A stretch of DNA of 64,000 nt from Apostichopus japonicus (lineage: Eukaryota; Echinodermata; Holothuroidea; Aspidochirotida; Stichopodidae). The stretch lies in NCBI RefSeq assembly GCF_037975245.1, contig NC_092569.1, forward strand, positions 18,085,501 through 18,149,500. Direction: 5' to 3'. The notes below the pieces were generated by a model. That model did not search any database, was not told the DNA's origin, and saw nothing but the letters and a program-made list of their open reading frames with translations. This document shows positions 21,955 to 51,284 of the stretch, one piece after another. The stretch's first letter is position 1. Each line of letters opens with the position of its first letter. The position numbers and the translations under genes were made by a program.

Positions 21955-22098
<144 letters not shown>

Positions 22099-22103
22099 AA
22101 TCC

Positions 22104-22153
22104 GACCGTTAGGCAACACTTCATGTGAAAAAAATAGCACTTAGGGCACCATT
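22104..22153 (+). repeat. Left terminal inverted repeat
   Basis: Matches the complement of 51187-51231 over about 45-50 aligned bases, with the best blocks at both ends: GACCGTT(A/G)GGC and GCACTTAGGGCA. Confidence 0.6.
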
Positions 22154-22155
22154 TG

Positions 22156-22188
22156 ACTTAGGGCGACATATATACTGTCGCCCTAAGT
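22156..22188. repeat. Left subterminal hairpin palindrome
   Basis: Perfect 13-base arms ACTTAGGGCGACA and TGTCGCCCTAAGT flank a 7-base TA-rich loop. The same arm sequence forms the hairpin at 51021-51054 and, as single arms, occurs twice in most units of the 45-51 kb satellite. Confidence 0.9.
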
Positions 22189-22539
22189 TCTGCCTTTTAA
22201 ATTGGAACGATAGAGTTACATTCTGCAAATATTGTTGGAAGCAAGTCAAGGGGGGTTGAAAAATGTTCGTTTCTATTAAGATTTATAAAAATTAATTAAA
22301 AACTAGGTAAATTAGAAAGCATTGAAGATAGGCATTCTGATATTGGCTATATGTGCGTGTGTTAAAAACAGCACTTTCGGCAACATTTTGATTATGGCCT
22401 TTAAAATGAAAATCGATATGTATATCTTTATTATAAAATCACCCTTTTAAACATATTACCCAAAGGAAAAATATATTAGCCTCTTTTAAGCAATGAATAG
22501 CGAAAATGAAGATATATTGCCAATATTGTATTGCACGGT

Positions 22540-22706
22540 ATCTTATTGCACCGATGAGAAGCCGGCCCTCTATAACGTTACGCTCTTCGCGCAGTACGGC
22601 TATACGTACGCGAACCTCGATCGTGCCTAGCTAGCCTATCGAGTATATGCCTAGATACAGTCCATCCAAATGCAGATGTGCGAGTCACACGGCGCGGGAA
22701 GAACGG
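22540..22706 (+). CDS. Possible first exon near the left end of the element
   Basis: A local CpG-rich patch in an otherwise CpG-poor region, ending in a perfect donor (ACG|GTAAGT at 22705/22706). From ATG at 22647 it reads MPRYSPSKCRCASHTAREE plus two bases. No domain recognised. The CpG patch plus donor suggests a promoter-proximal exon of an element-borne gene transcribed rightwards. The continuation was not identified. Confidence 0.25.
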
Positions 22707-25700
22707 TAAGTTAACTATTTGCGTAGTTCATTTAATGGCATAAGCGGCCGTATTATATTTTCGAAGCACACTCTCCTTGGCTATTATTTATGGCTTTCTC
22801 CTAATTACGCCAGCTGGTTAGGTCTATAGGCTGTGCATAACGTTAGGCCTAATTTAGTTAAAACGTAACTAGCCCTATCATAGGCCTAATTGATATTATC
22901 GTGTATTTATTAGCCTAGTACTTAGTAGTACTAGGGCAATTCCAAACGTTTCGCATCAGGGCCATTCGGAAACTTAGAAGAGAGTTGTGTTGGAGTATGG
23001 ATAGGTTTTTTTCACATATGAATATATATCTGAGCTAGGTTGCGCTTCATTGATAAACAATGATTCATTATTTTACCGATTTTGGACTAGCCTAATTATA
23101 AAGGCCTAGTGCCTACTGCATTTTGTATGGAAAAAAGGTCATTTATTGCAACAAAACATTTATCTTGGGATTTCTCTGAAAGTACTTATTCAAATCACCT
23201 GTTAACAATACCACCAATACTAACTAGTGGCCTATGTGGCAAATACCACCTATAAGCTTGGAAAAATATGGCATTATCGCTGCCCGCGGGGGAAATTTAT
23301 TATAATGCGCCCACCCAAAAAGAAAATGATTAAAGAGTTCCATTGACAACACAAATCATTTTTTCTGTAATACAAAAGTTCAATAAAGTCCTTTGTAAAA
23401 TTACTTCAAGATACTGATGATAAACAATTCATTAAATCATACCCATAACAACCATTGCAGGCATATCAATTCCTTAGCGCCATTCCCTGTGTGGCACGCG
23501 AACTGAGTTCGACCGCCGCAGTTTTAGGCCTATGACTTTACCATATAGACCATTTTCCTACAGCCATAACGTGAACAGTTTATACCGAAAAAACTTAGTT
23601 CAAATGGCACTAAACAGAGAAATGTGTTGTCTCTCAAGTTCTGTTCTTTTCTTAACAATACAGTTTAAAATTCCACCGGACTTGGGTGATTTACGATGCA
23701 AGGTTAATAAATATCGAACTCAAAACCCTCATTGATTACACACAGTACATACTGAAGAAAATCACCATTTGATAGCCGTACTTTGTTTGCGTAACCCTCC
23801 TCTTGAATATTCATTGACAAATTTAGTTCAAACGGTTTTGGGAAGTATTTTTTCTTTATATATAATAACTTTAAATTGATGTTAAATTCATTTTCATTGG
23901 TCACTATCTTCAATCGGACCAAGTACAATCCAATCGAATATCTTCTAAGAAAAATACAAGTTACGCTTTCTTCGGTGGGCATGCCGTTACATAATATGTG
24001 TACTGTATCCTGTACTCTGCAATAGGGTACAGCCACAATGCACAGTGTTCACCTACAACGCCACAGCCGAGATTCGCTTTCAAAACGTCATATTTTATCG
24101 AACTTAATATTATTTCAAAGAAAATGACCGTAGAATATGCATCATTAAATGTTGAAACAAGTAATTACCAACTAATTTATCTAATGCAATCCTAATTATA
24201 GAAAAACTGTTTAAGACCCCCCCCCCTGATGAATGAAATAGTCCAACCAACTTGTCCGCACAGAGCCACAGGATTTTCGGTCAAGGTGATGAGTCATACG
24301 CGTTGGTCAGTAAGAGGGCTATTTTGAAGGATGTTTAGTGTGCATTTTAGAAAGAAAGGAATTGATGTCTGATTGATTCCGCTAACTTTCCAGAAATAAT
24401 AAATCCCAAGAAAAACAATCCGAAAGTTGTAAAAGCTTGGACAGACACATGATGTGCATCTCAACAGTGACTGGTTCAATATACCCTAATGTTGAACAGA
24501 AAGAACATTTACAAATTTATCACTGATGAATGATGTTGCGAGCAGTCGGGATTACTGCACGCTTCAGGTGGCATACTCCTATTAGAGTCTATATCAATCC
24601 GCTCGATTGTTCTCCTTCAGGAAAAGTGCCGAAAAGCAGCGGGAGAACATCTTTTGTGACCTGTTATCAATCATAATCTAGTTTTTTGTGGCTTGCATGT
24701 TGAAGAGCATGAATGGAAGTACATGTGGTGAGAAAATTGGGTCAATTGAGGCAATTTTAGACCCCTTTAGGCCTCCCGGGAGCAGCGTAGGAAATTTGTT
24801 TACCACTGAGTGAAGAGGTTTGTTTACAAGTGACGAAAACTTCCGGCTCGGATAGCAAAAAATCTTCATGGTCATGGTACGGAAAATTGATGGTGCCATG
24901 AAAGGCCAACTTGTCAGCTATCCGGTGATGGGTAGCGTTTAGCTAGTGAAAACTTCTATCTAGACTTAGAGACCACATTACTTTTGTGATTTAGTGTGTA
25001 AGTCAATGGGGCTTTTAATGGGCGTATGCTACCTTCAGTTCTATTTAACCTTTTCATTTATCATATTTTAGTACTTAATTTCCGGTCACGCTCAGGAAAC
25101 AATTACGACATTCCTACACGGTCGATTTGTTTACTGTAAGAACTATTAACCGTTTTTTCTCAGGAAAGCTTGATAGTCTGAAGTTATTATAGCTTGAAAT
25201 TTTAGTATACTGCCAAAGAAGTAAGTTGTTGTTTTTGTATTGATATTTTATGTAGAAGTAACGGGAAATTTAGTATGTTTAGTTTGGTTTAATTGCACGT
25301 CTTTTTCGATCTAATGTAGTGCAGGGTTCACTTGCGCGAATTCAAATTATTCTGTTTATGTACAGTATATGCATTGATTAGATGCATTGATTATGTTTTT
25401 TTATACTTTTATTTGTAATTCAAGCATATCTGTTTAGAAACAAAGTTTAAAGGCTATCATTAATTAGTTTTCTCTTATATTGTTTGACTCCCAGATTGAA
25501 TGAAACTCATTGACGTAAATAATAGATCAGATCATACAGTTTTAGGCAGTTGCTAAAACTCTGGGTATTCTCTAGTCTTCGCCGGTCCAAATATCACAAA
25601 GTGAGAATGAAAACAACTCTTTATCCTAATTTTTAGTTGATTTTCTTTTTCTGAACCTTCCTTACAGTACTGTATACATCTGGGAAATGGACAGAACAAT

Positions 25701-26162
25701 TTCTAAAGTATATCTATAATTTTGGGAACTGTAGTACCCTACCCTAGAAGGGGAAAGTTGAAGGTCAATAGTGCAAAGGAATAAATAATCTTGTTTGATA
25801 AGAACTTAAAGTACATGGGAGGGGGGTGTAAAATATCACTTCATAACATCCCTCTTGCCTTGAGAAAGTTTTGAACAAATTTCTCTTTAACTTGTGAAGT
25901 AGGTAAACTTCAAAGTTACATCAAACAAATTTCATGATAAAAAGATCTTACATCATGAATATAAAAAGGATATGATAAAAAAGAATACAAGTGAAAGATT
26001 TTTGGTCAATGAGAGGTTTGATGTAAATGAAAGGAAAAGGACTGTTCCAACCCTTAAATTTTTAAAATGTATTTTACACTTAAACAATAGCATATTTATG
26101 CATTCTACTTTCAAGACTCATGTTCTGTGAAACACACTAAAATATGTCACCATTGTCCATAG
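22707..26162. other. Left part of the element, no gene recognised
   Basis: Short open frames on both strands (for example 23704-24036 and 24678-24899, minus) have no motif I know. A C-run of about 12 lies near 24217. Confidence 0.4.
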
Positions 26163-26338
26163 GTAAGGCTACACATGAATACCAATGGTGCTCTCGGAAT
26201 ATAAGTCCTAGAAAAGTATCTGCAAAACTAGGTACAGTATGCTACCAAAGCAGACATGAGAATCATTACCTTGAAATTCAAGATTACTTTGTCAGAAAGA
26301 ACACTGATAACAGTATATTCATTTGCTGTCTCTGTAAA
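26163..26338 (+). CDS. Possible coding exon, unknown protein
   Basis: Acceptor TTGTCCATAG and donor AAA|GTGAGC flank 176 open bases. The encoded peptide includes EYQWCSRNISPRKVSAKLG and ends ICCLCK. The splice sites and lack of stops are the only support; no family recognised. Confidence 0.3.
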
Positions 26339-29235
26339 GTGAGCATTGATACTTGACCCATCAAGTCTTTGCATATAATCGACTACACATTAATCATTAA
26401 AGGCAAGTGTCATGGACCAAATCAAAGGTTAAAGTAAAAGCATATGTACATATCAACCTGCAGAAACCTACGTTGCTAATGTAGAGCGAACATTGTCGTT
26501 ACCCTTTCCCCTTCCCACCTTACACAGTATATGGCATAGAACGGCATACAGCTGTTAGTGAATATTAACACTAACTCGAACCACATAAAACTACTCCAAC
26601 TGGTAAGTATCTATTCCAGTTCCTGTTACACTGTGCTGCACTGTGCCACACAGTATACAGTGCCATTCTTACACAGATTCACTTTTATCTTTTATCTGTA
26701 ATCAATCCTAGGGCAATTTCTGTCTCTATTACTCTTCTGCCCAGCACTTAGAACTTGTTAAGATGAAACCAGTACACTAATTTACATAGCTGTTTTAGTC
26801 ACCGATGCTTTCACACAGAGGTAAAATAATTGTTATCTAAGATGTGGTTATTAGGATGCCAAATTTATGTCTAACGAGAAACAGAACTAAAGAGTCATCT
26901 GCTGAACCTGTTCTATAAAAAGTATTATGTTTATGGTCATGCATGTTGGAACAGGTGTTTACATTCATGGATATGTGAGTTGGTGCATTGGGACATTTAT
27001 ACATTTCATGGTGAGATCTTCCCTCACTGCCATGGTTTAGAGTAGGTGCACATATTGCCATGTCAAAGATTTGATGAATTTACTGTAACTTTAATGACTA
27101 GAAGTCTTGGGATTGGTCAATATATTATGGCATTCATGGTATTGAATTGAATGCAACAGATGTATAGTGGTTTGATGTAGTGACCTGTAATTGGTATGGC
27201 CTGAGGCTGTTTTCTTTCTTGAATGTGTAATCATGGAGCTATAAACAGAGGTGTAATAAACTGGTGACTGTCAACCAGTGTTCCAATTACAAAAAAAAAA
27301 TTGTACATGCACCTGTGCATGTAGGTTAAACAAAAATTACCTGCACAAACAAATCATTACCTGCACCCCAAGTGAAAAATACAAAAAGGGTGTTTTCAAA
27401 GTTACTCCTGGGTTTTGTTTATGTAGGCCATTTCGGGATATGATGATTACTGAATATTTTACTTGCATGCACATGCACACATAGCTTACATGTGTGCATG
27501 CACATGTGCGCACACACATGTAAGCTATTTAAGTAACATGCAGTCAAAAGTTACGTGCATTAATTTTGGTGCTGTCAACCCTTTGTATTCACATGTCACC
27601 ACTGGTTTGACAGATCTGCTTGCAACTCTCCAATCTTTTCGAGCAATCACTAGTAATTTCACTAATATCCACTATAAATTTAATCGCTGAATAAATTGTT
27701 GGCCAAATCCACAAGTTGCAAATTTTATGCTACATCACACCAAAATAAATCTACACATGTTTTTTAAAAGGTAAATACTGACCTATCAATATGAAACATT
27801 TGAGAGATGCAAAAACTCATCTGCACATCTCAAAAAAAAGTATTTCTTTCCTACAAAGTGAAACACATTTGCCAATGGTTGGTACTATTATGAAGAAAAG
27901 GCCTACAGTAGCTACAAAATGAAACTCCTATATTTTTGCATTAAAGGCATACATGTAAATAACATTTTTGGTAATGTACATACACAGTAACTCATAGAAA
28001 ATGACAGGCTAACCCTTTATTATAACCTATATACAAACTATGCCATTTAAACTGCTTCTGTACACATAATACACATGACTTTATCCACTATTTGGTTTTG
28101 GCATTCCTGAACAATCCATTACACAATAAATATCTTCTGCTTGTGAACAAATACTTCTGGCAGATATTGCATTACTGGGTGGAATATCATGATAGTCTTA
28201 TATTATAAATTAATAAAGAATGGACACGTCCCTTGCTGTAGCTGCAAATCTAAACATCCCATTTTGAGTTGAAAACCTTGATCAGTGCGTGCAACTGAGT
28301 GAATTTCATAGCTCTCAACTCTGCTTGTTAAAAAATGTGACTAGTTTTCATTTGAATCACTCTACTTGTCAATGGTTGAGGTTGAATATACAACTCTAAA
28401 GGGGGTTCACAATTTCCCTTTCTAGTTTCTAATCTACCAACCTTTTTTTGATGCAAAAGAGGAACTTCAAGTACAGGTACAGATGCAACAACTGGCATTT
28501 CTAGTGAATATTTCAAACCCATTGGGAAGCAATTCACAATGAAAATCAGACCAGTTGTGAAGCAATTCAACTAAAATTTTCAGAATATGCTTATTTGTGG
28601 TGAACCCTGCATAAAATAAATTTGGTAATTTTTAAAACAGGTTCCTGGGTAAATTACTGAACTTCCTGCATTGTCAAATTTAAAGGATTTTTTTAATGCA
28701 TATTTCGTAGAAAGTTATTGATATAGCCTATCCCTGGGTAACTGTAATTTTCGTGGAGCTGGTTGTTTACAGACACTGCAAAGAGCCCAGGGTAAATATT
28801 GGATCAGGTTTTGAGGCTTTGCGCATGTGTAGTTTAAACTCTCAAGTTCAAACAGGCGTACGATATGCACATACAAATAGTGAATAGTGAACTGTGGAAT
28901 TTAGCAAGAAAAATATAAACCTATGGAGTTGGCGACAGGGAAGTACAAATATAAGTGCTAATGAATGGGGGACTGGGCGGTGAAAATTGATTGAAGGGGC
29001 AGGACAGGCGAACAGAGGTAAAACAGTGAAGCTAGTAAGGTACTTGACCAGCTGCCCTATAGTGTAGAATATATTCGCACAGTATGGGATTGGGAAGTGA
29101 TACGATAGCAACTAGGGCCTAGTAAAAATAAATGCAATTGTTGTTCGATCGGGACCTAATTTTTCAGTAACATTACTGGGTAAGGATACACTTACCCTAC
29201 AATATTATTACAACACTTGCTTAAAATAATACTTT
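26339..29235. other. Unannotated element sequence
   Basis: No gene recognised. It holds a TG/CA-rich hairpin at 27482-27527. The minus-strand frames at 28328-28570 and 28848-29111 are open but without motif. Confidence 0.4.
27482..27527. repeat. TG/CA hairpin
   Basis: Perfect 15-base arms TAGCTTACATGTGTG and CACACATGTAAGCTA around a 16-base, partly self-complementary centre. It lies inside a CATGCACATG-rich stretch. Confidence 0.9.
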
Positions 29236-29482
29236 ATGGCACGGTTATACTTTGATCTCATTGGGGAGAGTACAAAAAAAATGGAGACAGCATGGTTTCA
29301 CTCACCCGTTAAATTGCTAATTGCACATCAAAAAGTTACACAAATATTAAAAACCACTGGTAAAAAAATAAACATCAGCTCTGGTCTGGTCTCTGATCCT
29401 CAGGGTTGTCATCTCTGGGAGTGGAAATATTCCTATGATTGTCTTTGCAAATCTAACTTCAAGCCTCAGGTGGCAACTAAAG
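29236..29482 (+). CDS. Possible coding exon upstream of the SET-like exon
   Basis: Open to a GTATGT donor (phase 1 end). The peptide includes SDPQGCHLWEWKYSYDC. No acceptor was chosen with confidence and no family recognised. Confidence 0.22.
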
Positions 29483-29573
29483 GTATGTCTTGAACTAAGT
29501 TAAGCCATCTTGATGCCAAGTTCAAACTTTTGTCTTCAGTATGTTGTCTTAAGTATGACGCCTTATCAAAGCG

Positions 29574-29780
29574 ATGAGCCAAACATTCGATCCGGGTGAT
29601 CCTCCTTTCGCTAGACCAAGCCCAGCAGTAGCCGAACGTCAGGCGATGCGTGCATGGTTGGGTCTATACCTCCAGAAAAAAAAAATAGTGCCTATGTGGA
29701 TGTTTCAGTGCTTTGAAAGTAGTTCTGCTGTTTTAAATCCGCTCTTGCACCATGAAATGTTTATTGCAAAAGCATTATAA
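29574..29780 (+). CDS. Possible short open frame with CpG-rich start
   Basis: An ATG-initiated 68-codon frame whose first 100 bases are clearly richer in C, G and CpG than the surroundings (MSQTFDPGDPPFARPSPAVA, then RQAMRAWLGLYLQ). It might be a first exon of the SET-like gene 1 kb downstream, or an inserted fragment. No homology recognised. Confidence 0.25.
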   Translation: MSQTFDPGDPPFARPSPAVAERQAMRAWLGLYLQKKKIVPMWMFQCFESSSAVLNPLLHHEMFIAKAL

Positions 29781-30798
29781 TTTTATGATATATTTCTAAC
29801 CGATGCAACTTAGATGTCGTGTAAAGAGAAGTTTGGGGCCATTAAAAGAGGCTTTTCACTACTGTACTAACAAAGTTGATAAATGGTTATTTTCAGTCCA
29901 GTTTATTGATGGCGTTATTGTTGAGTCTAAATTTGTCTCAAATACAACAGCACTGGTGTGTATGTTAGTTGAGCTTTTTGAATTATTCACAGTATTTGAC
30001 GAACAGTGTTGTGAATGGTAAAAGTATGTGCTTAAAACATGTTGCATTGCAGTAAATGTATACATGTTGGTCAGGGGTAGTAGATATGTGCATTGTGCAG
30101 CTGCTCCCTTGAATGTGGGGCTTAATGTAAACTTTCAATTTAATTTGGCATGATCCCATGCCAATGATCTGCATAATATTTGGTATGAAGCTATACTTTA
30201 ACAAGAATTTATATAGTACATGGCAAAATCTCATATTAGTGGTGCCACCAATTTAAAATCAGTCAGATAGCCTATGTACTACATGTGTGCTTATAAACAT
30301 GATAATACTGTGCATGAAGGGCACTATGTTAGCATCAGACTCAAATTTATGTTGGTCTTGAAATGTAAATGAGCCCTATCGTTAGGTCTTCCAATAGTTT
30401 ATCTTTCCAATATTTTGTAAGCATGATATATTACATAGATTACTTGGTACAAACTAGTAGTTGATAGTGTTAGGTAGGACAACACATTATGTCATTAGTT
30501 ATTTAACTGTTGTTGCACAAGATCATTTTAAATCAGCTACAGGTACAAAAAATAATTGAAAATGGGTCATTCATGTAGGTTTTGTCATATTGCATGGGTA
30601 CAAACTATATCGTAAACCTGGAGGTACAATAGATGATTCAAGAATGTCTCCAAATTATTAGGTTGACAGGGCTTTTACTTGTGAATGCCTAAATGTCAAT
30701 TACATGTTGTAATCAACTCTCATATTATTGTGAGTACTATGATGGCCAGAAAATGATATTAACTTGACCAACTGTAACTGCATATTTTGTGGTTACAG

Positions 30799-30921
30799 GT
30801 TATGGAGTATTGCACATAGGAAGTTCATCAAAGGGGAGTTCCTAGTAGAATATTGTGGAGAGCTAATTTCCCACAAGGAAGCTCTGAAGAGGGAAAAGGT
30901 TTACCATGAGGAAAAAGGATG
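30799..30921 (+). pseudogene. SET-domain exon (KMT5A-like), frameshifted
   Basis: Acceptor GGTTACAG, then GYGVL in one frame. One base appears to be missing at about 30812, after which the next frame gives HRKFIKGEFLVEYCGELIS and KREKVYHEEKG. This is the N-terminal part of a SET methyltransferase fold and resembles KMT5A/SETD8 (KGxFxVEYxGxLI). The catalytic NH(S/C) and GEELxxDY parts were not found. It is probably a degenerate copy of an element-borne or captured lysine methyltransferase. The 3' border is uncertain. Confidence 0.6.
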
Positions 30922-31306
30922 GGGTAGAGTAACTGAGGCCATAGACCCCATTTTGTAATACTGTATTTTAATCATATCTGAAACCTTTGAGGATTGATAC
31001 CATTGAGTATGGCATGATAAAAGTGAAGTGCTTATTATAATGAACTCAACCCCTAAGGCTTTTCCAACCAGTTTCAACTACTGTTTGCCCCTCTCCTTCT
31101 TCATAGCTTTTCAATGCAGTCCTGCTTTTCATCTAATTCCATTATCATAGTTAGCTGCTCTACCCTCTATTACTGTTTTCACCCATCATATTTACTCAAC
31201 TGTCTTGAAGGAACTTGAGCAAGTAGCATGCGTTATTCTGACTATCTTGTCAGTATATTGTTTTATAATGCTCTATACCAGCTCTGTCTTCTGCTTTGAA
31301 TTTTAG

Positions 31307-31390
31307 CTGTAACAAGTAATGAGGAGAGTCATGGAGATGAAGATCATGTCCCTGTTTGCAAACTTCACAACACTTCAAAGGGTCAACAAG
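31307..31390 (+). CDS. 84-nt acidic exon, copy 1
   Basis: Acceptor TTGAATTTTAG and donor CAAG|GTATGG; phase 1 at both ends. It encodes VTSNEESHGDEDHVPVC and then KLHNTSKGQQ. It is duplicated with its flanks at 33233-33316. Symmetric phase means the copies could be used in series without breaking the frame. Confidence 0.5.
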
Positions 31391-33232
31391 GTATGGATTG
31401 CAATCTCTGCCATTTGCATTGAAACCACAATTAATAGAACACATATACAGGAGAGAAGTAGATGAATATGTCTAACACCTTGTAACTTGCTTATTCTTAT
31501 TTCACACATATAGTAATTTTTAGAGCAACTATGTTTTTGAAGTGCTTCTTTCATTTTTTCATTTCATTTATATTGTTTTATATAACATAAGTATGATATA
31601 ACAACATAGGAGATAAGAACCAAAACCTGTGAAAGGAAGTGTACTAAAAACCCTATGGGGCTTGTTGAGTAGTGACACTCCCTGACAAAATACAGTTCAC
31701 TTAACAACTTTACTACTTATCAGAGGTATAAGCATGTAGTTTTATCCACCGACAACACCTAATGGGCAATTAGCATTGCTTTTTTTTTTATTAGGACTTT
31801 CACTTCCAACCTGCTTTACTTGTGCTCTGAAACTTCTATTTTTTGTTTAGACCTGTGTGAGGCTGTATGCGTGGTGGGATTCTGTGTTAAGGGGGAAAAC
31901 TGAACATAGGTTTTGATCTCATCTGTCAAAAGGAAACAAACAAATTGTTTGAGCTGTTGCATGGTGGTTTAGAGAGCTGTTTATCGATGGTACTTGTACC
32001 TGTGGTACAGTAGGTCCGTCTCAGTGTGGGGCTGTGAGATTTGTACAATAACTTTCGAGAGCTATATTCCTGCAGCAATGAGTGTTTTGTTGATTTGTAC
32101 AATGAACAGACCTATTCAAGACAGATTCATGCGCATGGTGTGAATAGTCAACTGGAGGCAGTCCGTCCTTTTTTTTTGGACATGTGAGAATAGGTTAAGT
32201 ACAAAGGAGATTCTTCCATATTCACGCAGCAACCTAGTATACATTGAATAGCTGAACAGATTTTAAACTTTCAACAGCTTCATATCAAGTACACTACACA
32301 CTTAAAAAGTTATTGATAATTGATTTGGAAAATTTGGACTTGTTCCAGTGGAACATTACACAGACCAGAGATGTGTGAGCAAGGGCCACAATAGATTTGA
32401 TAAAAACAAAAAGATGCACTTGCAGAAAAATCTTAGAGTGTAAAATTTCTTTTTGTATTTCTTAACGGGAAGCACAATTTTACAGGTATGAAATAATATT
32501 ATTAAAATGAGAGCATTTCAGGTCTATATTTATTATATGCTGTAGGCTGTCACTTGTCTGAAGCATTTTGCATGTGAATGTCTACATGCATCTATTACTG
32601 TGTACATGATACATACTGTAATGCTTTGTTGAATTTGTATTGAGCAATTGTACCATCATTATTCATTAAATTGGACCAGTGGAATCAATTGCCTTTACCT
32701 TTGACTTAAGCCAACATTCCACCATGAAGCTCCAATGTGAATTATCCACATTTTTAATATTCTTTTCATTAAAATATTTCAACTTGTGATATGATCATTG
32801 CATTTGGAATGTCTTTATTCATTTGGAAATTAATTGAATGAAGAATGTTATGTCATGGATATGGCTAACCCATGTTGGAAAAAATTGGGGGAGAGGTGGA
32901 GACAAATCAAGGTATTATGGGTGCTATTATAATTACACCATATATTCCACTCAATTGTTACAGCAAATTGAATGCATTGTTAAGGAAAGTAAGATTTACC
33001 TGTTTACACCTATGTGCAACAGCTGGTCTTGACATGGCATATCAATTGATAAACAATCACATGACAAAGTTCTGCTGTATTGGGCATATTTGCTAAATAT
33101 TGAAATGAAAACATAAAATTGATATTGATCATAAATATATGAGCAAATAACATGCATTATTCTGACTATCTTGCCAGTATATTGTTTTATATAATGCTGT
33201 AAACCAGCTCTGTCTTCTGCTTTGAATTTTAG

Positions 33233-33316
33233 CTGTAACAACTAATGAGGAGAGTGATGGAGATGAAGATCATATCCCTGTTTGCAACCGTCGCAACACT
33301 TCAAAGGGTCAAAAAG
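33233..33316 (+). CDS. 84-nt acidic exon, copy 2
   Basis: Same splice sites and phase as the copy at 31307. It encodes VTTNEESDGDEDHIPVC and then NRRNTSKGQK. The upstream flank from about 33150 is also duplicated (from about 31227). Confidence 0.5.
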
Positions 33317-34196: not shown

Positions 34197-34268
34197 TAAG
34201 GAAGTATACCATATGGAAAAAGAGCCACGAGAAGAAAATACATCACAGGAACCTCAAAGACGATGCAA
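34197..34268 (+). CDS. Possible basic exon of the SET-like gene
   Basis: Acceptor ATTTCTTACAG. It enters in phase 1, as required by the 84-nt exon, and leaves in phase 2 at GCAAG|GTAGAA. The peptide includes RKYTIWKKSHEKKIHHRNL. A second open frame exists in the same bases, so this assignment rests on the phase chain. Confidence 0.35.
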
Positions 34269-35593: not shown

Positions 35594-35694
35594 ATCAAAA
35601 AAAGATAATGACTTCCTAAAGACACAGGGCGAAGATGTCCCATACAACTGGTTTATTGGCAAATGCCAGAAGCTGGCAGAGAAAAGAATGTTAA
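35594..35694 (+). CDS. Coding exon of the SET-like gene (unknown domain)
   Basis: Acceptor TTTTTGCACCTAG, phase 2 entry matching the preceding exon, donor GTATGT with phase 1 exit. It encodes SKKDNDFLKTQGEDVPYNWF and IGKCQKLAEKRML. Length 101 fits the phases exactly. No family recognised. Further exons to the right were not identified. Confidence 0.45.
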
Positions 35695-38080: not shown

Positions 38081-38089
38081 TTTGGGTGG

Positions 38090-41000
38090 AGATGACTGGG
38101 GATGGGCATTTTGGGGGTCTACTGGCAGGGGTACCCCACTAATATAAATTACTGGAATTGCCCATCCCTTACAAATAGAGTCCTGCCAATTATTTTCCGG
38201 TAGTTTTTAACTGGATACTTCATGAGCAGACCTAGGTCAATGAGGGGATGGGCTTTTTGGGGGTCTACTGGCACGTGTACCCCTCTAATAGAAATTTCTA
38301 GAAATGCCCAAACCTTACATATGAGTGATACCTATCATTTTTCAGTAGGTATCAACTGGTAACCTTATGAGCCGACCTAGGTCAATGAGGGGATGGGCTT
38401 TTTGGGGGTCTACTGGCAGGGGTATCCCACTAATATAAATTACTGGAATTGCCCATCCCTTACATATAGAGTCCTGCTAATTATTTTTCGGTAGTTTTTA
38501 ACTGGATACTTCATGAGCTGACCTAGGTCAATTAGGGGATTGGCTTTTTGGGGGTCTACTGGCACGTGTATCCCACTAATAGAAATTTCTGGAAATGCCC
38601 AAACTTTACATATGAAGTGATACCTATCATTTTCCAGTAGGTTTCAACTGGTTACATCCTGAGCTCACCTAGGTCAATGAGGGGATTGGCATTTTGGGGG
38701 TCTACTTGCAGGGGTACCCCACTAATAGAAATTTCTGGAAATGCCCATCCCTTACATATGAGTGATACCTATCATTTTCCAGTAGTTATCAACTGGTTAC
38801 CTTATGAGCCAACCTAGGTCAATGAGGGGATGGGCCTTTTGGGGGTCTACTGGCAGGGGTACCCCACTAATATAAATTACTGGAATTGCCCATTCCTTAC
38901 ATATAGAGTCCTGCTAATTATTTTTCGGTAGTTTTTAACTGGATACTTCATGAGCTGACCTAGGTCAATGAGGGGATGGGCTTTTTGGGGGTCTACTGGC
39001 ACGTGTATCCCACTAATAGAAATTTCTGGAAATGCCCAAACCTTACATATGAAGTGATACCTATCATTTTCCAGTAGGTTTCAACTGGTTACATCATGAG
39101 CACACCTAGGTCAATGAGGGGGATTGGCATTTTGGGGGTCTACTTGCAGGGGTACCCCACTAATACAAATTACTGGAATTGCCCATCCCTCACATATAGA
39201 GTCCTGCTAATTATTTTCCAGTAGTTTTCAACTGGTTACTTCATGAGCTCACCTAGGTCAATGAGGGGATGGGCATTTTGGGGGTCTACTTGCAGGGGTA
39301 CCCCACTAATACAAATTTCTGGAAATGCCCAAACTTTACATATGAGTGATACCTATCATTTTTCAGTAGGTATCAACTGGTAACCTTATGAGCCGACCTA
39401 GGTCAATGAGGGGATGGGCTTTTTGGGGGTCTACTGGCAGGGGTACCCCACTAATATAAATTACTGGAATTGCCCATCCCTTACATATAGAGTCCTGCTA
39501 ATTATTTTTCGGTAGTTATTTACTGGATACTTCATGAGCTGACCTAGGTCAATGAGGGGATGGGCTTTTTGGGGGTCTACTGGCATGTGTATCCCACTAA
39601 TAGAAATTTCTGGAAATGCCCAAACCTTACATATGAAGTGATACCTATCAGTTTCCAGTAGGTTTCAACTGGTTACATCATGAGCTCACCTAGGTCAATG
39701 AGAGGATTGGCATTTTGGGGGTCTACTTGCAGGGGTACCCCACTAATAGAAATTTCTGGAAATGCCCATCCCTTACATATGAGTGATACCTATCATTTTC
39801 CAGTAGGTATCAACTGGTTACCTTATGAGCCGACCTAGGTCAATGAGGGGATGGGCTTTTTGGGGGTCTACTGGCAGGGGTACCCCACTAATAGAAATTT
39901 CTGGAAATGCCCATCCCTTACATATGAGTGATACCTATCATTTTCCAGTAGGTATCAACTGGTTACCTTATGAGCCGACCTAGGTCAATGAGGGGATGGG
40001 CTTTTTGGGGGTCTACTGGCAGGGGTACCCCACTAATATAAATTACTGGAATTGCCCATCCCTTACATATAGAGTCCTGCTAATTATTTTTCGGTAGCTT
40101 TTAACTGGATACTTCATGAGCTGACCTAGATCAATGAGGGGATTGGCTTTTTGGGGGTCTACTGGCACGTGTATCCCACTAATAGAAATTTCTGGAAATG
40201 CCCAAACCTTACATATGAAGTGATACCTATCATTTTCCAGTAGGTTTCAACTGGTTACATCATGAGCACACCTAGGTCAATGAGGGGGATTGGCATTTTG
40301 GGGGTCTACTTGCAGGGGTACCCCACTAATACAAATTACTGGAATTGCCCATCCCTCACATATAGAGTCCTGCTAATTATTTTCCAGTAGGTATCAACTG
40401 GTTACCTTATGAGCCGACCTAGGTCAATGAGGGGATGGGCTTTTTGGGGGTCTACTGGCAGGGGTACCCCACTAATATAAATTACTGGAATTGCCCATCC
40501 CTTACATATAGAGTCCTGCTAATTATTTTTCGGTAGTTTTTAACTGGATACTTCATGAGCTGACCTAGGTCAATGAGGGGATTGGCTTTTTGGGGGTCTA
40601 CTGGCATGTGTATCCCACTAATAGAAATTTCTGGAAATGCCCAAACCTTACATATGAAGTGATACCTATCAGTTTCCAGTAGGTTTCAACTGGTTACATC
40701 ATGAGCTCACCTAGGTCAATGAGAGGATTGGCATTTTGGGGGTCTACTTGCAGGGGTACCCCACTAATACAAATTTCTGGAAATGCCCATCCTTTACATA
40801 TGAGTGATACCTATCATTTTCCAGTAGGTATCAACTGGTTACCTTATGAGCCGACCTAGGTCAATGAGGGGATGGGCTTTTTGGGGGTCTACTGGCAGGG
40901 GTACCCCACTAATATAAATTACTGGAATTGCCCATCCCTTACATATAGATTCCTGCTAATTATTTTTCGGTAGTTTTGAACTGGATACTTCATGAGCTGA

Positions 41001-41440
41001 CATAGGTCAATGAGGGGATGGGCTTTTTGGGGGTCTACTAGCACGTGTATCCCACTAATAGATATTTCTGGAAATGCCCAAACCTTACATATGAAGTGAT
41101 ACCTATCATTTTCCAGTAGGTTTCAACTGGTTACATCCTGAGCACACCTAGGTCAATGAGGGGGATTGGCATTTTGGGGGTCTACTTGCAGGGGTACCCC
41201 ACTAATACAAATTACTGGAATTGCCCATCCCTCACATATAGAGTCCTGCTAATCATTTTCCAGTAGTTTTCAACTGGTTACTTCATGAGCTCACCTAGGT
41301 CAATGAGGGGATGGGCATTTTGGGGGTCTACTGGCAGGGGTACCCACCAATAAAAATTACTGGAAATGCCCATCCCTTGTAACTGAAGTCCTCACCATCA
41401 TTTTCCAATAGGTTTCAAGTGGTTACCTCATGAGCTGACC
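38090..41440. repeat. Minisatellite array 1, about 146-bp unit, about 22 copies
   Basis: The CCTAGGTCAATGAGGGGAT block recurs every 145-147 bases (for example at 38231, 38376, 38522, 38668 and 38813). Two main unit types partly alternate. One has GGCAGGGGTACCCC and TAATTATTTTTCGGTAG. The other has GGCACGTGTATCCC and GATACCTATCATTTTCCAG. This gives a dimeric higher-order pattern. The last unit decays at about 41.4-41.5 kb. Confidence 0.95.
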
Positions 41441-41499
41441 TAGGTCATCCATGAGGCTGGCAAAGCTACCCCACCACCAATAATTACTGGCGATGGCCA

Positions 41500-44280
41500 T
41501 TTGTTGCTCATGGGGCCATACCTGACACATTGTATTTACTTTGATGTGGTTACCATGAAAGCTGATCTAGGTTAGCTTTTAGGTGACTTTAAAATTGCTT
41601 TCCCAGCCACATCCACCACAGCCGGTTTTCCAGTCTTCTGGTTTCATATACAGGAATGCACTGTGAACATTGTGATGTACAAGGCAGTTGATTACCTTCC
41701 CAGCTAACCAAACCCTATGGGCTCCTGGTCTATATTGATGCTCCATTGACACCCTTGCCTCCAGAATGTGACTGTGTGACGTCAGGTGTTAGAATCGCTT
41801 TAGAATTCATTGGACATTTGAGTGAATGTAGGGACCAAAACATGAACTTTTTATGCAATTCTTTGAGAAACATAACATAGCTCCACTAAAATATGCAAAA
41901 GTGATCTACTTCCACCCCACCAAAAAACCTTGTCTTGTGGATGGGGGTGGGGGGGGGTGGGTTAAGAAGACCAGTTCATACAACTTTATAAAGAACATAC
42001 CTGGAAATATTTTCGATATGAATTTCAACATTTTTTATCATTGAAATTTCTTTGGGCATGCACCCAAAGGTCACAGTTTACTTTTCTTACAAAGGGACCT
42101 TTGCAACATAATGTTTTAACAATAGTAATAGATAATGAATGTATCTATAAACTCAGTAATTTTTAGGTTGGTGCTCCCTCTTTTTATAATCTTTTTCAGT
42201 GAAAACATCTTGAGTGAAGGCATTCTTGCACTTTATACTCAAGCATGTGCTCAAGTTTTAGATTTTCAAAAAGCCTAACTAGTATCTTCTCTAACAATTG
42301 TGTTCTTTGAATATTGTTTAATGGGTATGACAGGAATTTGCATATTCGAGAAGTTTTTAAATATTTCTTGACATTGAGAAGAACTTGCCATTATTTTGGT
42401 TCTGTAAGTCCTTGTCACATCAACATAAAGACAGGTTTTTTCCTCATTTGTTATTATGATTTGGATTGAACCTCTTCAAAGCTTTTTATTCTCAGTATAT
42501 ACTTACACCAAATGTTCACATTATTATGGTCACTGGTATTTTTAAAAAGGTATCAAAAGATATTTTATGATTAACAAAGCAGACATCTTGGACTACCACT
42601 GCAGTGGTTTTTGAGTATGTGCCCCTGTCCTGTGGTCCATCATTGAAGAACTGTTCACATAAGTATGTACCTTTTTAGATAGGGAGCACTTAGAGTAGCC
42701 CTGTGACTGATGGGACATTTGCGGACCACCATTTTTAGGTACATTTAGTTAACTTGTAAGCGCTATCTCAGAATGAAAAGAATGAGTTGGGTATATACCC
42801 CTCCTGGTAGCTACTTAATGTAGCTATATCAGAGCACCACCATTGAGAGAATATTGGCATTAACTATTTCACACAGTGGCATTTCCCTTGTGACTGATGG
42901 GACAGAAGCTCTGTGACTGATGGGACGCTACAGTATCTCCTCCAAAATTATAGCAAATTTTGCTTTGCACTAACTTCAGTTTGCATCCACATATGGTGCC
43001 AACTAGCATTAAACTTGGGTCATCTGGGCTCTAGCCACCCATAGTCATCACAGGTAGGGCCCACTCGAGTTGGCCAATGGGGGTGTGGGTCCCACATTGG
43101 TTTGCCATATGAGCATCCCATAGAAGCAACTGGCATATGTAGAACAGACACAGGCCCATGGGAAAACCTGTTCCATTCCCACACTTGCTGTCTCATATTG
43201 CCCCATATGACTGAGTCATGGGTGTGTGATTTGTTGGGGCCTCACTGGGAAAGCTGTTTGGGCCCATATTTGGTGAGGTATGTTGCCCATGTATGGGACT
43301 CATGTCATCCCACTTCAGTGTATCAAGTAATTACATCTGGATAAATGAAACACAATCCGTATGCATTTGAAACTTGCATTTTATTTATTAACAACAACAG
43401 ATCGAGCTGAGCCTTGAAACATGCAAACATTGATAATGAACAGGATACTAATTAAACAACATTGATGAAGTCATTTAAGTCACATGAGCTTTTGACAATA
43501 TGCTGAGCTTAACCCTGGGCAGCAAAAGTACCGAGATACTCTCAACTGTGGATTTAAAGGGTCCAATCTGCCCATCATATAGTGAAAGTCTAATACAATT
43601 TGTTTGAGCCATGTTCTCCTTTCCCCCCAAAATACTAAAGTGGTCAACATCCCATGAGGAAAGAGCCAAAATTAATAGGCAAAGGGGCATACATATACTA
43701 TAAAAAGGATCCACCTGGCCTTACCAATGATTGGATTGGACCTTACATCATTTAAGTTACAGCCTAGTGGTTCTGTGAAAACTAATTCACTTGTGTGATG
43801 GGTACTCCTGTGGTGATACTGCCAACCAGGAGTGTGTTGTACAGTGCTTCAGGTTCTTTTTCCCCCTGATAGACCCACCAGTTCCTTCAACTGGGCCTCA
43901 TTGTTCTGTGATCCAAGAATATTGCATTCCTCAAATTTTGGACAGAAGGGCCTGTATGCAGTGATCCAGCCCTCTCTACAAACCTCTGTGCATGCCACTG
44001 CTGTAGATGATAATAGTTGTTATGTCATTTCTTTTTAGGAAATTAGGTATGAATGGAACGACACTATTCTTGTACTAATACTTTTAGGCATTGCAAACTG
44101 TCCAATATAGGCTATACTATCTGAACCATATACTGTGACTTATGGGACAGTAAAATCCAAAGATCTGACATGTATACCAATCTTGATTCAGGATAACCTT
44201 CACAGGTCAATGAACACTTCATCATGTCACCATCATGTCAGTGACACAAGCTGCTTTCAATAACATGGTCTAACAAATTA
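41500..44280. other. Unannotated element sequence with scattered 17-base motif
   Basis: No gene recognised. A poly-G patch lies near 41946, and a stretch at 43010-43330 is rich in CCCAT and ATGGG words. It contains four of the six copies of CTGTGACTGATGGGACA or close variants (42701, about 42887, 42911 and 44133). Confidence 0.4.
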
Positions 44281-44698
44281 ATTTGAAGAAATATACTGTA
44301 CCTGTATTCTGATTTGCGTTTTTGTTCACGTTCTCGACGCTTCTCTTGTGAAGACATCTCCCGCTTCTTCTTGTGGGTCCACTGTTTGCGATACGCTGAC
44401 TGTGTTTTTTTATATGCATCATATTTCCCCTCTGCTTTCAAACGTTCCCTCCTGTTTCGCTGTCTTTCAGCACTGGATTTCCCCATTTTGCATTGCACCA
44501 CACATGCAGCCTAATTCTGTGACTGATGGGACAGTTTCAGGTTGTCTTGCACATAACCCTATACACAATTGAAGAATCTCTGCTCATGCCAGATTAAGCC
44601 TTGAGTAGTACTAGATAGATGGACCCCCAACAGCAGCTAAAATCATTCTGTTGGCTTATGACTAAAACAAATGTTAAAAAACTGTGGCTGATGGGACA
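42701..44698 (+). repeat. Six dispersed copies of a 17-base motif
   Basis: CTGTGACTGATGGGACA or one-to-two-base variants occur, all in the same orientation, at 42701, 42887, 42911, 44133, 44517 and 44682. They are not spaced regularly and the sequence between them is not repeated. Confidence 0.8.
44302..44501 (-). CDS. Exon for a very basic N-terminal domain protein
   Basis: The minus-strand frame starts MVQCKMGKSSAERQRNRRER; an internal Met at 44486 is an equally good start. It continues with LKAEGKYDAYKKTQSAYRK and EMSSQEKRREREQKRKSEY, to a GTACAG donor at 44301. The regular Lys/Arg/Glu pattern predicts charged helices and resembles uncharacterised invertebrate proteins beginning with an SAERQR-type segment, possibly DNA-binding; that comparison is from memory. 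One copy of the 17-base motif (44517-44534) lies 16 bases upstream of the first ATG. Downstream exons were not found. Confidence 0.5.
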
Positions 44699-45040
44699 TG
44701 TCCACACTCATTATTTCAAGAAATCACACAAAGACTTCTATTCATATAGACACCTGTAACTTTGCAGAAGGTGAAAGGTCTCAAGGTGACTTTCATACTC
44801 AAAACAAAGTTGGTCATTTCTAGAATCATGCCAACTATTAAAGGGGCACTCTGAATTTTAGGAAATTTTGCTAATTTTTCGTTCCTGCAGCACTTGACGG
44901 TTAAATGCATGCTGCAGTGAGGAGAAACACGTTATAAGCCAGGTGAAACCTGTTTTTGGTAGTTTAACTGTCATGTATATCAAATATCTCCCTCAAATGG
45001 CTGCAACCTTACGTTGATTTTTAGTGAAAAATGCATCAAT
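44535..45040. other. No gene recognised
   Basis: Contains the sixth 17-base motif copy (44682-44698). The array begins at its right side. Confidence 0.5.
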
Positions 45041-48000
45041 TCAATGGAATGTGTAATTAATTACTTAGTTAATTAAATTATTTGCTATATTGATTTTACA
45101 AAGGGATTACTTTCAATAGTACCCATACTGGAGTCCTTACAGTGGTCCAGTGTGATGATATAACATTGAATTGCCAATGTCGCTCTAAGTGTTGTTTTTA
45201 TGCTATGTCACCCTAAGTGTTGTGGAAAGAGATAAATTCACATAGGACAACTCGTATATGTGTAATTATTTACTTAGTTAATTAAATTATTTGCTATATT
45301 TATTTTACAAAGGGATAACTTTCAACAGTACCCATACTGGAGTCCTAACAGTGGTCCAGTGTGATGATATAACATTAGATTGCCAATGTCTTTAAGTGTT
45401 GTTTTTATGGTATGTCGCCCTAAGTGTTGTTAAAAGAGATAAATTCACATAGGACAACTCGTATATGTGTAATTAATTACTTAGTTAATTAAATTATTTG
45501 CTATTTTTATTTTACAAAGGGATAACTTTCAATAGTACCCATACTGGAGTCCTTACAGTGGTCCAGTGTGATGATATAACATTAAATTGCCAATGTCGCC
45601 CTAAGTGTTGTTTTTATGGTATGTCGCCCTAAGTGTTGTTAAAAGAGATAAATTCACATAGGACAACTATGTGTAATTAATTACTTAGTTAATTAGATTA
45701 TTTTCTATATTTATTTTACAAATGGGTTACTATCAATAGTACCCATACTGGAGTCCTAACAGTGGTCCAGTGTGATGGAATAACATTAAATTGCCACTGT
45801 CGCCCTTAGTGCTGTTTTTCTTCTATGTTGCCCTAAGTGTTGTGAAAAGAGATAAATTTACATAGGACAACTTGTATATGTGCAATTAAATAATTAATTA
45901 GTTAAATTATTTGCTATATGTATTGTGCAAAGGGATACATATAAATAATACCCATACTGGAGTCCTAACAGTGGTCCAGTTTGATGAAATATTCATTAAA
46001 TTGCCACTGTCGCCCTAAGTGCTGTTTTTATGATATGTTGCCCAAGTGTTGTGAAAACAGCTAAATTCACATACGCCAACATGAATATGTGTTATTAATT
46101 AATTAATTAGTTAAACTACTTGGTTTATTGTCTTGCAAAGGGATTTCTATGAATAGTACCCACACTGGAGTCCTATACAGTGGTCCAGTGTGACAAAATA
46201 GTATTGCATTACATGTATATGTGTAATTAATTACTTAGTTAATTAGATGATTTTCTATATTTATTTTACAAAGGGATTACTATCAATAGTACCCATACTG
46301 GAGTCCTAACAGTGGTCCAGTGTGATGGAATAACATTCAATTGCCAATGTCGCCCGAAGTGCTGTTTTTATTCTATGTCGCCCTAAGTGTTGTGAAAAGA
46401 GATAAATTTACATAGGACAACTTGTATATGTGTAATTAATTACTTAGTTAATGAGATGATTTTCTATATTTATTTTACAAAGGGGTTACTATCAATAGTA
46501 CCAATACTGGAGTCCTAACAGTGGTCCAGTGTGATGGAATAACATTAAATTGCCACTGTCGCCCTAAGTGCTGTTTTTATGATATGTTGCCCAAGTGTTG
46601 TGAAAACAGCTAAATTCACATACGCCAACATGAATATGTGTTATTAATTAATTAATTAATTAGTTAAACTACTTGGTTTATTGTCTTGCAAAGGGATTTC
46701 TATGAATAGTACCCACACTGGAGTCCTATACAGTGGTCCAGTGTGACAAAATAGTATTGCATTACATGTATATGTGTAATTAATTACTTAGTTAAATACA
46801 ATATTTTCTTTATTTATTTTACAAAGGGATTACTATCAATAGTACCCATACTGGAGTCCTAACAGTGGTCCAGTGTGATGGAATAACATTAAATTGCCAA
46901 TGTCGCCCTTAGTGCTGTTTTTATTCTATGTCGCCCTAAGTGTTGTGAAAAAAGATAAATTTACATAGGACAACTTGTATATGTGTAATTAATTACTTAG
47001 TTAATTAGATGATTTTCTATATTTATTTTACAAAGGGGTTACTATCAATAGTACCAATACTGGAGTCCTAACAGTGGTCCAGTGTGATGGAATAACATTA
47101 AATTGCCAATGTTGCCCTAAGTGCTGTTTTTATTCTATGTCGCCCTAAGTGTTGTGAAAAGAGATAAATTTACATAGGACAACTTGTATATGTGTAATTA
47201 ATTACTTAGTTAATGAGATGATTTTCTATATTTATTTTACAAAGGGGTTGCTATCACTAGTACCCGTACTGGAGTCCTAACAGTGGTCCAGTGTGATGGA
47301 ATAACATTAAATTGCCAATGTCGCCCTAAGTGCTGTTTTTATTCTATGTCGCCCTAAGTGTTGTGAAAAGAGATAAATTCACAAAGGACAACTTGTATAT
47401 GTGTAATTAATTACTTAGTTAATTAAATTATTTTCTATATTTATTTTACAAAGAGGTTACTATGAATAGTACCCATACTGGAGTCCTAACAGTGGTCCAG
47501 TGTGATGGAATAACATTAAATTGCCAATGTCGCCCTTAGTGCTGTTTTTATTCTATGTCGCCCTAAGTGTTGTGAAAAAAGATATATTTACATAGGACAA
47601 CTTGTATATGTGTAATTAATTACTTAGTTAATTAGATGATTTTCTATATTTATTTTACAAAGGGGTTACTATCAATAGTACCAATACTGGAGTCCTAACA
47701 GTGGTCCAGTGTGATGGAATAACATTAATTTGCCACTGTCGCCCTAAGTGCTGTTTTTTTGATATGTTGCCCAAGTGTTGTGAAAACAGCTAAATTCACA
47801 TACGCCAACATGAATATGTGTTATTAATTAATTAATTAGTTAAACTACTTGGTTTATTGTCTTGCAAAGGGATTTCTATGAATAGTACCCACACTGGAGT
47901 CCTATACAGTGGTCCAGTGTGACAAAATAGTATTGCATTACATGTATATGTGTAATTAATTACTTAGTTAATTACAATATTTTCTTTATTTATTTTACAA

Positions 48001-51000
48001 AGGGATTACTATCAATAGTACCCATACTGGAGTCCTAACAGTGGTCCAGTGTGATGGAATAACATTAAATTGCCAATGTCGCCCTTAGTGCTGTTTTTAT
48101 TCTATGTCGCCCTAAGTGTTGTGAAAAAAGATAAATTTACATAGGACAACTTGTATATGTGTAATTAATTACTTAGTTAATTAGATGATTTTCTATATTT
48201 ATTTTACAAAGGGGTTACTATCAATAGTACCAATACTGGAGTCCTAACAGTGGTCCAGTGTGATGGAATAACATTAAATTGCCAATGTTGCCCTAAGTGC
48301 TGTTTTTATTCTATGTCGCCCTAAGTGTTGTGAAAAGAGATAAATTTACATAGGACAACTTGTATATGTGTAATTAATTACTTAGTTAATTAGATGATTT
48401 TCTATATTTATTTTACAAAGGGGTTACTATCAATAGTACCCATACTGGAGTCCTAACAGTGGTCCAGTGTGATGGAATAACATTAAATTGCCAATGTTGC
48501 CCTAAGTGCTGTTTTTATTCTATGTCGCCCTAAGTGTTGTGAAAAGAGATAAATTTACATAGGACAACTTGTATATGTGTAATTAAGTACTTAGTTAATG
48601 AGATGATTTTCTATATTTAGTTTACAATGGGGTTGCTATCACTAGTACCCGTATATTTATTTTACAAAGACGTTACTATGAATAGTACCCATACTGGAGT
48701 CCTAACAGTGGTCCAGTGTGATGGAATAACATTAAATTGCCAATGTCGCCCTTAGTGCTGTTTTTATTCTATGTCGCCCTAAGTGTTGTGAAAAAAGATA
48801 AATTTACATAGGACAACTTGTATATGTGTAGTTAATTACTTAGTTAATTAGATGATTTTCTATATTTATTTTACAAAGGGGTTACTATGAATAGTACCCA
48901 TACTGGAGTCCTAACAGTGGTCCAGTGTGATGGAATAACATTAAATTGCCAATGTTGCCCTAAGTGCTGTTTTTATTCTATGTCGCCCTAAGTGTTGTGA
49001 AAAGAGCTAAATTCACATAGGACAACTTGTATATGTGTAATTAATTACTTAGTAAATTACATTATTTTCTATATTTATTTTACAAAGGGATTACTATCAA
49101 TAGTACCCATACTGGAGTCCTAACAGTGGTCCAGTGTGATGGAATAACATTAAATTGCCAATGTTGCCCTAAGTGCTGTTTTTATTCTATGTCGCCCTAA
49201 GTGTTGTGAAAAAAGATAAATTTACATAGGACAACTTGTATATGTGTAATTAATTACTTAGTTAATGAGATGATTTTCTATATTTATTTTACAAAGGGGT
49301 TACTATCAATAGTACCAATACTGGAGTCCTAACAGTGGTCCAGTGTGATGGAATAACATTAAATTGCCAATGTCGCCCTAAGTGCTGTTTTTATTCTATG
49401 TCGCCCTAAGTGTTGTGAAAAAAGATAAATTTACATAGGACAACTTGTATATGTGTAATTAATTACTTAGTTAATGAGATAATTTTCTATATTTATTTTA
49501 CAAAGGGGTTACTATCAATAGTTCCAATACTGGAGTCCTAACAGTGGTCCAGTGTGATGGAATAACATGAAATTGCCAATGTCGCCCTAAGTGCTGTTTT
49601 TATTCTATGTCGCCCTAAGTGTTGTGAAAAGAGATAAATTCACATAGGACAACTTGTATATGTGTAATTAATTACTTAGTTAATTAAATTATTTTCTATA
49701 TTTATTTTACAAAGGGGTTACTATCAATAGTACCAATACTGGAGTCCTAACAGTGGTCCAGTGTGATGGAATAACATTAAATTGCCAATGTCGCCCTAAG
49801 TGCTGTTTTTATTCTATGTCGCCCTAAGTGTTGTGAAAAGAGATAAATTCACATAGGACAACTTGTATATGTGTAATTAATTACTTAGTTAATTAAATTA
49901 TTTTCTATATTTATTTTACAAAGAGGTATCTATGAATAGTACCCATACTGGAGTCCTAACAGTGGTCCAGTGTGATGGAATAACATTAAATTGCCAATGT
50001 TGCCCTAAGTGCTGTTTTTATTCTATGTCGCCCTAAGTGTTGTGAAAAGAGATAAATTTACATAGGACAACTTGTATATGTGTAATTAATTACTTAGTTA
50101 ATTAGATGATTTTCTATATTTATTTTACAATGGGGTTGCTATCAATAGTACCCATACTGGATTCCTAACAGTGGTCCAGTGTGATGGAATAACATTCAAT
50201 TGCCAATGTCGCCCTAAGTGCTGTTTTTATTCTGTGTCGCCCTAAGTGTTGTGAAAAGAGATAAATTCACATAGGACAACTATGTGTAATTAATTACTTA
50301 GTTAATTAGATTATTTTCTATATTAATTTTACAAAGGGGTTACTATCAATAGTACCCATACTGGAGTCCTAACAGTGGTCCAGTGTGATGGAATAACATT
50401 AAATTGCCAATGTCGCCCTTAGTGCTGTTTTTATTCTATGTCGCCCTAAGTGTTGTGAAAAGAGATATATTTACATAGGACAACTTGTATATGTGCAATT
50501 AAATAATTAATTAGTTAAATTATTTGCTATATGTATTGTGCAAAGGGATACATATAAATAATACCCATACTGGAGTCCTAACAGTGGTCCAGTTTGATGA
50601 AATATTCATTAAATTGCCACTGTCGCCCTAAGTGTTGTTTTTATGATATGTTGCCCAAGTGTTGTGAAAAGGGCTAAATTCGCATACGTCAACATGAATA
50701 TGTGTTATTAATTAATTAATTAGTTAAACTACTTGGTTTATTGTCTTGCAAATGGATTTCTATAAATAGTACCCACACTGGAGTCCTATACAGTGGTCCA
50801 GTGTGACAAAATAGTATTGTATTACATGTATATGTGTAATTAATTAATTAATTACTTAGTTAATTCCTTGCTAAATATATATTTCAAAGGGATTACTATA
50901 AATAGTACCCATACTGGACTTCAATGTGATGAAATTACATTAAAATGCCAATGTCGCCCTAAGTGTTATTTGATGCGATGTCGCCCAAAGTGCTGTTTCA

Positions 51001-51020
51001 CAGTTAAATTCACTGAGATG

Positions 51021-51054
51021 CACTTAGGGCGACATCTATATGTCGCCCTAAGTG
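51021..51054. repeat. Right subterminal hairpin palindrome
   Basis: Perfect 15-base arms CACTTAGGGCGACAT and ATGTCGCCCTAAGTG around a 4-base loop, about 180 bases from the right end. The arm core is that of the left hairpin at 22156-22188. Confidence 0.92.
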
Positions 51055-51186
51055 TGTTTGTGTACAATTAATTGATTATTTAATTAAAATCCTTGGTATT
51101 TGTATTTTGCAAAAGGATTATATTTAAAAGCACTCAAACTGGAGTCTTTACAATGGTCCAGTGTGAAACAATAACATTAAATTGCC

Positions 51187-51231
51187 AATGTTGCCCTAAG
51201 TGCTCTTTTTATCCTATGTCGCCCAACGGTC
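51187..51231 (-). repeat. Right terminal inverted repeat
   Basis: Ends GCCCAACGGTC, the inverse of the left end at 22104, and is followed within about 10 bases by (TA)n. Confidence 0.6.
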
Positions 51232-51241
51232 TAATTTAGAG

Positions 51242-51282: not shown

Positions 51283-51284
<2 letters not shown>

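Follow-up and report, generated by a model that had tools for sequence, protein, structure and literature searches.

What is the tract of about 29 kb, bordered on both sides by (TA)n microsatellites, that splits a tandem array of FREP-type genes in the 64,000-nucleotide stretch of DNA analysed here (the window, G000:C9:18085501-18149500, from a genome of 671.6 Mb in 35 contigs)? A first-pass annotation, based on the letters of the window, had proposed a giant DNA element with inverted ends, satellites and host-like genes. The giant TIR-like (TA)n element with satellites stands, and the host-like content holds for one exon, which resembles the SET domain of KMT5A. Our comparisons show that window positions 22099-51242 (29,144 bp) hold one member of a dispersed family of giant elements. 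A fair reading of its surroundings is that they are FREP-type genes of an animal, because six of the ten flank ORFs tested match Fibrinogen_C, on both sides of the element; one other matches EGF_3 and TILa, one gave a weak match short of the cut-off and two gave none. The same FREP-type array also holds a 3.2-kb duplication (92% identity) whose two parts, 13621-16777 and 59247-62388, lie on either side of the element.

The delimitation of the element comes from its other copies. A genome search with 601 bp of the left end gave 40 matches (40 scored of 52 candidates), from which we used the 26 with at least 90% identity, partial ones included, and excluded 14 at 71-83%. The 601-bp right-end query gave at least 431 matches, because it contains satellite (23 scored of 152 candidates); here the 23 matches with at least 87% identity were used and satellite-internal ones excluded. 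Among the matches listed, a convergent right end lies no more than 60 kb from at least 19 of the 26 left ends, where random placement would yield 0.03 left/right pairs. The co-occurrence of both ends at a similar distance, on which the proposal of a single element turned, is thus seen at 18 further loci, 22-57 kb apart among the matches listed. The paired ends enclose 22.3-36.5 kb in 18 of the 19 cases and 56.6 kb in the other, whose match to the interior query is interrupted by ~10 kb. Seven left and four right ends are unpaired among these matches, with the interior query near two of the former (C2, C7) and near two of the latter, which lie on C16. Contig C16 carries seven of the 19 pairs, versus 1.3 expected (binomial P=1.7e-4, for a contig picked after looking); the excess might reflect local hopping or something special about this chromosome.

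Six copies could be assembled from contiguous stretches: the window copy (29,144 bp), C9b (26,529 bp), C12a (30,354 bp), C16a (23,594 bp), C17 (31,748 bp) and C12b (30,623 bp). All of them, 23.6-31.7 kb long, run from AATCCGACCGTTAGGC to GCCCAACGGTCTAATTTAGAGT. The limits 22099 and 51242 derive from comparing the window copy with the five others, the outermost A/T letters being unassignable within (TA)n. Flanks of up to 2 kb have in common only one 47-bp match and a ~310-bp repeat that lies beside the window copy and C17 and also within the C12a flank. The features of the window copy are as follows, with the strand where one applies.

21971..22098, (TA)n target, left (A/T run of 128 bp)
22099..51242, giant element, one copy of 29,144 bp; two borders identical in six fully read copies, 19 paired loci
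22099..38097, left block of near-constant length, 15.91-15.97 kb (six-copy comparison)
22104..22114, plus strand, left tip GACCGTTAGGC, imperfect TIR (sequence match, copy comparison)
22156..22188, left subterminal palindrome ACTTAGGGCGACA...TGTCGCCCTAAGT, putative binding site (folding, end-to-end alignment)
24568..25026, nested small transposon with GGTRGCATAC ends, missing from C16a
30799..30923, plus strand, SET-domain (KMT5A-like) exon with AG/GT borders, probable host-like gene fragment (Pfam SET E=0.018, short of cut-off; PDB KMT5A E=1.6e-4)
31307..31390, plus strand, 84-bp exon-like stretch, its phase apparently compatible with the SET exon
33233..33316, plus strand, 84-bp exon-like stretch in a duplicate of the region around 31307-31390 (duplication, borders)
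38098..41447, 146-bp tandem array of 23 units, size differing between copies (repeat and copy comparison)
42633..45050, 2.4-kb block common to a repeat locus on C20, with dispersed TGTGACTGATGGGACA words (94.8% over 2428 columns)
44241..44510, minus strand, basic ORF P0001, not intact in every copy (copy and genome comparison)
45049..51200, tandem array of 209-bp units containing GCCCTAAGTG words (this copy has 39 in this orientation), irregular in its end part, putative transposase-loading array
51020..51055, right subterminal palindrome with arms as in the left one, putative binding site (folding, end-to-end alignment)
51221..51231, minus strand, right tip, near inverse GCCCAACGGTC (inverse of GACCGTTGGGC), imperfect TIR (sequence match, copy comparison)
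51243..51282, (TA)n target, right (A/T run of 40 bp)

Besides transposition, such a set of loci could stem from faulty assembly, from segmental duplication or from (TA)n tracts recombining with one another. (TA)n tracts are hard to assemble, and two of the copies lie ~64 kb apart on C9 in opposite orientation. However, among the matches listed the borders are alike at no fewer than 19 paired loci spread over eight contigs, the flanks are unduplicated in all six copies read, and the C9 pair is no closer in sequence than other young pairs, which makes all three highly improbable. In the 16-kb left block, pairwise differences are 0.30-0.38% among the window copy, C9b, C12a, C17 and C12b, while C16a stands 1.20-1.25% away from each of these five; the middle block, 3.46-3.50 kb long in all six copies, diverges by 0.46-0.81% among the same five and by 1.10-1.33% for C16a. 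Because the distances among the five copies are nearly equal, they suggest a recent burst of copying.

The ends themselves are TIR-like. Inverse end words beside (TA)n, which had been noticed at the outset, are indeed present at 22104-22114 and 51221-51231 with (TA)n adjoining both; these tips are short, imperfect versions of GACCGTTRGGC, with GCACTTAGGGCA-like words inward of each, and together with the common palindrome they provide the inverted repeats. Outside the GACCGTT word, the outermost letters of the two ends are unlike (5 versus 11 letters), which counts against the TIR reading. The hairpins with the same arms described near both ends were likewise recovered: the left (22156-22188) and right (51020-51055) palindromes align with 31 matches in 33 columns and a score of 54, whereas the two 300-bp ends, when shuffled 500 times by single letters, never scored above 35. 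The left one has a 13-bp stem (fold z -3.9, with 1 of 200 shuffles as good), and the right one, 187-222 bp inside the right end, has a 16-bp stem (fold z -8.8, 0 of 200).

Where does the element insert? At 8 of 8 left and 8 of 8 right ends, belonging to nine elements, the adjoining DNA is an A/T run with a (TA)n reading, 24-161 bp long; these 16 ends are the best eight loci of each end search and were not picked at random. Outside the element, perfect (TA)12 or longer occupies 0.6% of the window, and in six other loci 0.3%. TATATATATATA also precedes the start of an old relative on C10 (72.9% over 505 columns), whereas a relic on C22 is now without a long TA run, which counts against a strict target. 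At all 16 ends (TA)n would hide a target duplication of any even length, and assignment to Tc1/mariner or Mirage is unproven because a 2-bp TA duplication is unreadable within (TA)n. The data at hand contain no clean empty site, and one weak collinear match to a FREP paralog. The FREP paralogy of the left flank stops at 21644 (which pairs with 3705, 65% identity). Because 51634-51700, to the right of the element, matches 4831-4897 (67 bp, 74.6%, E=7e-6), the insertion site may have a collinear counterpart in a diverged FREP paralog, which has a (TA)n tract at 3738-3995; the match is too weak for us to call this paralog an empty site. Between two (TA)n tracts beside the window copy lies the ~310-bp repeat (51283-51590); with an ARAGORN tRNA-Cys call inside, it looks like a tRNA-derived SINE, and the TA tails of this SINE-like repeat may supply target sites.

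Insertion between (TA)n tracts would also suit a circular form integrated by a tyrosine-type recombinase or through recombination at (TA)n, as in Cryptons or the fungal Starships, since (TA)n on both sides is what a crossover at a short common sequence would produce, and giant size combined with gene fragments is reminiscent of Starships. We nevertheless consider this very unlikely: the ORFs scanned contain no recombinase family, and inverted tips with palindromes at both ends better suit a TIR transposase.

The length differences of the six copies lie mainly in the 146-bp array and the right 209-bp array. The latter holds 15-56 copies of GCCCTAAGTG per element, a word that also forms the palindromes near both ends, with many spacings of 28 and 181 bp. 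Each element has CACTTAGGGC two times in one orientation and 15-56 times in the opposite one, and the word is found nowhere else in the window, for an end word total of 17-58 per element and 0 in the rest of the window. By analogy with Galileo, we read the GCCCTAAGTG words as putative transposase sites, although the long array is present at the right end only, which counts against a loading function. The remaining structural differences are smaller. The left block of C16a has 312-bp and 64-bp stretches of its own; the nested transposon at 24568-25026 shows an apparent 5-6 bp duplication (TTCAG/CTTCAG), with C16a displaying the empty site. An Rfam search at E up to 1 returned five miRNA models, all far below gathering scores and some on simple repeats.

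A transposase, to be sought by profile search according to the first-pass annotation, did not appear in the ORFs scanned. Outside the arrays the element has 165 ORFs of at least 43 aa, of which 156 were scanned with Pfam (10 + 148, two shared). No transposase, recombinase, polymerase or capsid family was found in these 156 of 165 ORFs, and a motif search for a DDE family gave nothing convincing. At E up to 0.05, the 148-ORF scan returned six weak families (best E 0.0061), only SET being plausible. The SET exon and the two 84-bp stretches might form one exon chain, judging from phase and borders; no further SET parts were recognised in the element ORFs scanned, and SNPs in the six copies give no clear signal of coding constraint. 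P0001 has 53 matches in the genome (all 59 candidates scored) and is doubtful as a conserved gene of the element, with stops in 28 of them, though part of it lies past a likely splice donor, and a start codon deleted in C12b (one of six copies). It has no PDB match at E up to 1 and no relative in viral contigs, in which the left palindrome likewise has no exact match. The C22 relative contains sulfotransferase-like exons (L043 8759 to L044 5150; Sulfotransfer_1 E=1.6e-4, just short of cut-off), which we could not establish as cargo: the left end there is an old relic, and no right end follows through the end of L047.

The C20 locus that has the 2.4-kb block, L046, encodes at 3228-3797 a 190-aa ORF resembling P-element transposase (PDB 6p5a, E=8e-4). 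It matches no Pfam family at E up to 10 and has no credible match in the window element (best tblastn E=4.9) or in the other copies, so that we take it as a possible lead to the P superfamily, not as membership. This ORF also bears on whether the element might be autonomous, through a divergent, intron-split transposase in the 16-kb left or 3.5-kb middle block that single-ORF domain scans missed. Short derivatives are common for elements moved in trans; among the matches listed none of the 19 pairs is short, all being large, and autonomy with an unrecognised gene is for this reason a strong rival. Further in its favour are the large interior kept in all 19 paired copies (among the matches listed), the nearly constant lengths of the left and middle blocks, the exon-like stretches with AG/GT borders and the P-like ORF just described. 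The failure of 156 ORFs to match any transposase family and the lost start and the stops of P0001 noted above argue against it, and autonomy appears possible but rather unlikely.

The reading we prefer is transposition by an enzyme from outside the element, although no partner acting in trans came to light. From the observed ends, copies and target we infer the enzyme, its binding and its reaction as follows. The CACTTAGGGCGACAT word, palindromic near both ends and present in many further copies through the right 209-bp array, would be bound by a cut-and-paste transposase. As no transposase was recognised within the element, this enzyme would most likely act in trans. This array would load many transposase copies and thereby offset the handicap of length. 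The interior would be mostly passenger: a second array, a nested transposon, the block common to another repeat locus and the KMT5A-like SET gene fragment. Taken as a whole, the family probably consists of young giant (about 22-36 kb) TIR-type DNA transposons integrating into (TA)n microsatellites, with the transposase most likely acting in trans and loaded by the right array. A bolder interpretation, that these are a new class of giant self-mobile animal transposon with an undescribed recombinase aimed at alternating TA, satellite-loaded and carrying captured chromatin-gene pieces, the animal counterpart of fungal Starships, seems to us quite unlikely.

TIR elements of animals mostly measure a few kb, and longer elements are generally believed to transpose less well. 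With copies of 22-36 kb, several of them ~0.3% apart, this family shows that giant TIR-like elements can spread recently in an animal genome. Whether a satellite array at one end serves as a transposase-loading platform that pays for size becomes a testable question. The family also ties satellite growth to transposons, and its choice of target, a microsatellite and in this case one within an array of FREP-type genes, is strict.

How does this family compare with known systems? The ORFs scanned with Pfam include no Tc1/mariner or Mirage transposase. Members of the P superfamily make an 8-bp target duplication, which (TA)n would likewise hide here; a P-type (THAP9-like) transposase was not found in the element, the P-like ORF being situated in the C20 locus. 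Helitrons and Helentrons have Rep/helicase, a 3' hairpin close to the end and no inverted ends, whereas the giant element has inverted tips, its right hairpin well inside the end and no Rep/helicase in the ORFs scanned. Nor do these ORFs contain the PolB, integrase or capsid families of Polinton/Maverick or virus-like elements, or the tyrosine recombinase of Starships and Cryptons. The literature covered, mostly outside subscription journals and in part as excerpts, yielded no animal TIR element that is giant and targets (TA)n.

The closest precedents each have part of its features. MuTAnT, a Mutator-like element of Medicago, inserts into (TA)n, where its duplication is unreadable for most copies; in the portions of the source consulted, copies measure 0.2-1.6 kb and a putative autonomous element of 4.9 kb has a mudrA-like ORF and 9-bp duplications (PMC4486113). 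The target is alike, but the giant element is an animal one of 22-36 kb in which no mudrA-like ORF was found. Tetris, from Drosophila virilis, is described in the accessible part of its report as having no known transposase and internal tandem repeats of ~220 bp (PMC4079207); it is a foldback element whose two TIRs both contain repeats and whose target duplications can be read, whereas ours is not foldback. Among giant mobile DNAs, excerpts of the literature list the tyrosine recombinase of Starship, the piggyBac-herpesvirus fusion of Teratorn and the PolB and integrase of Polinton, none matched in the ORFs scanned; these elements carry sequences unneeded for transposition, as the present one probably does (PMC6431247). 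Galileo, of the P superfamily in Drosophila, is flanked by two long TIRs and encodes a THAP/P-type transposase, in contrast to the giant element, which has a long array at its right end only and no such transposase in the ORFs scanned. In the sections of the source available, the long TIRs of Galileo contain tandem repeats with additional binding sites, of which the first lies ~70 bp from the end; its authors propose that many sites offset length (PMC3688188). The giant element likewise has further copies of its subterminal site in tandem repeats near an end.
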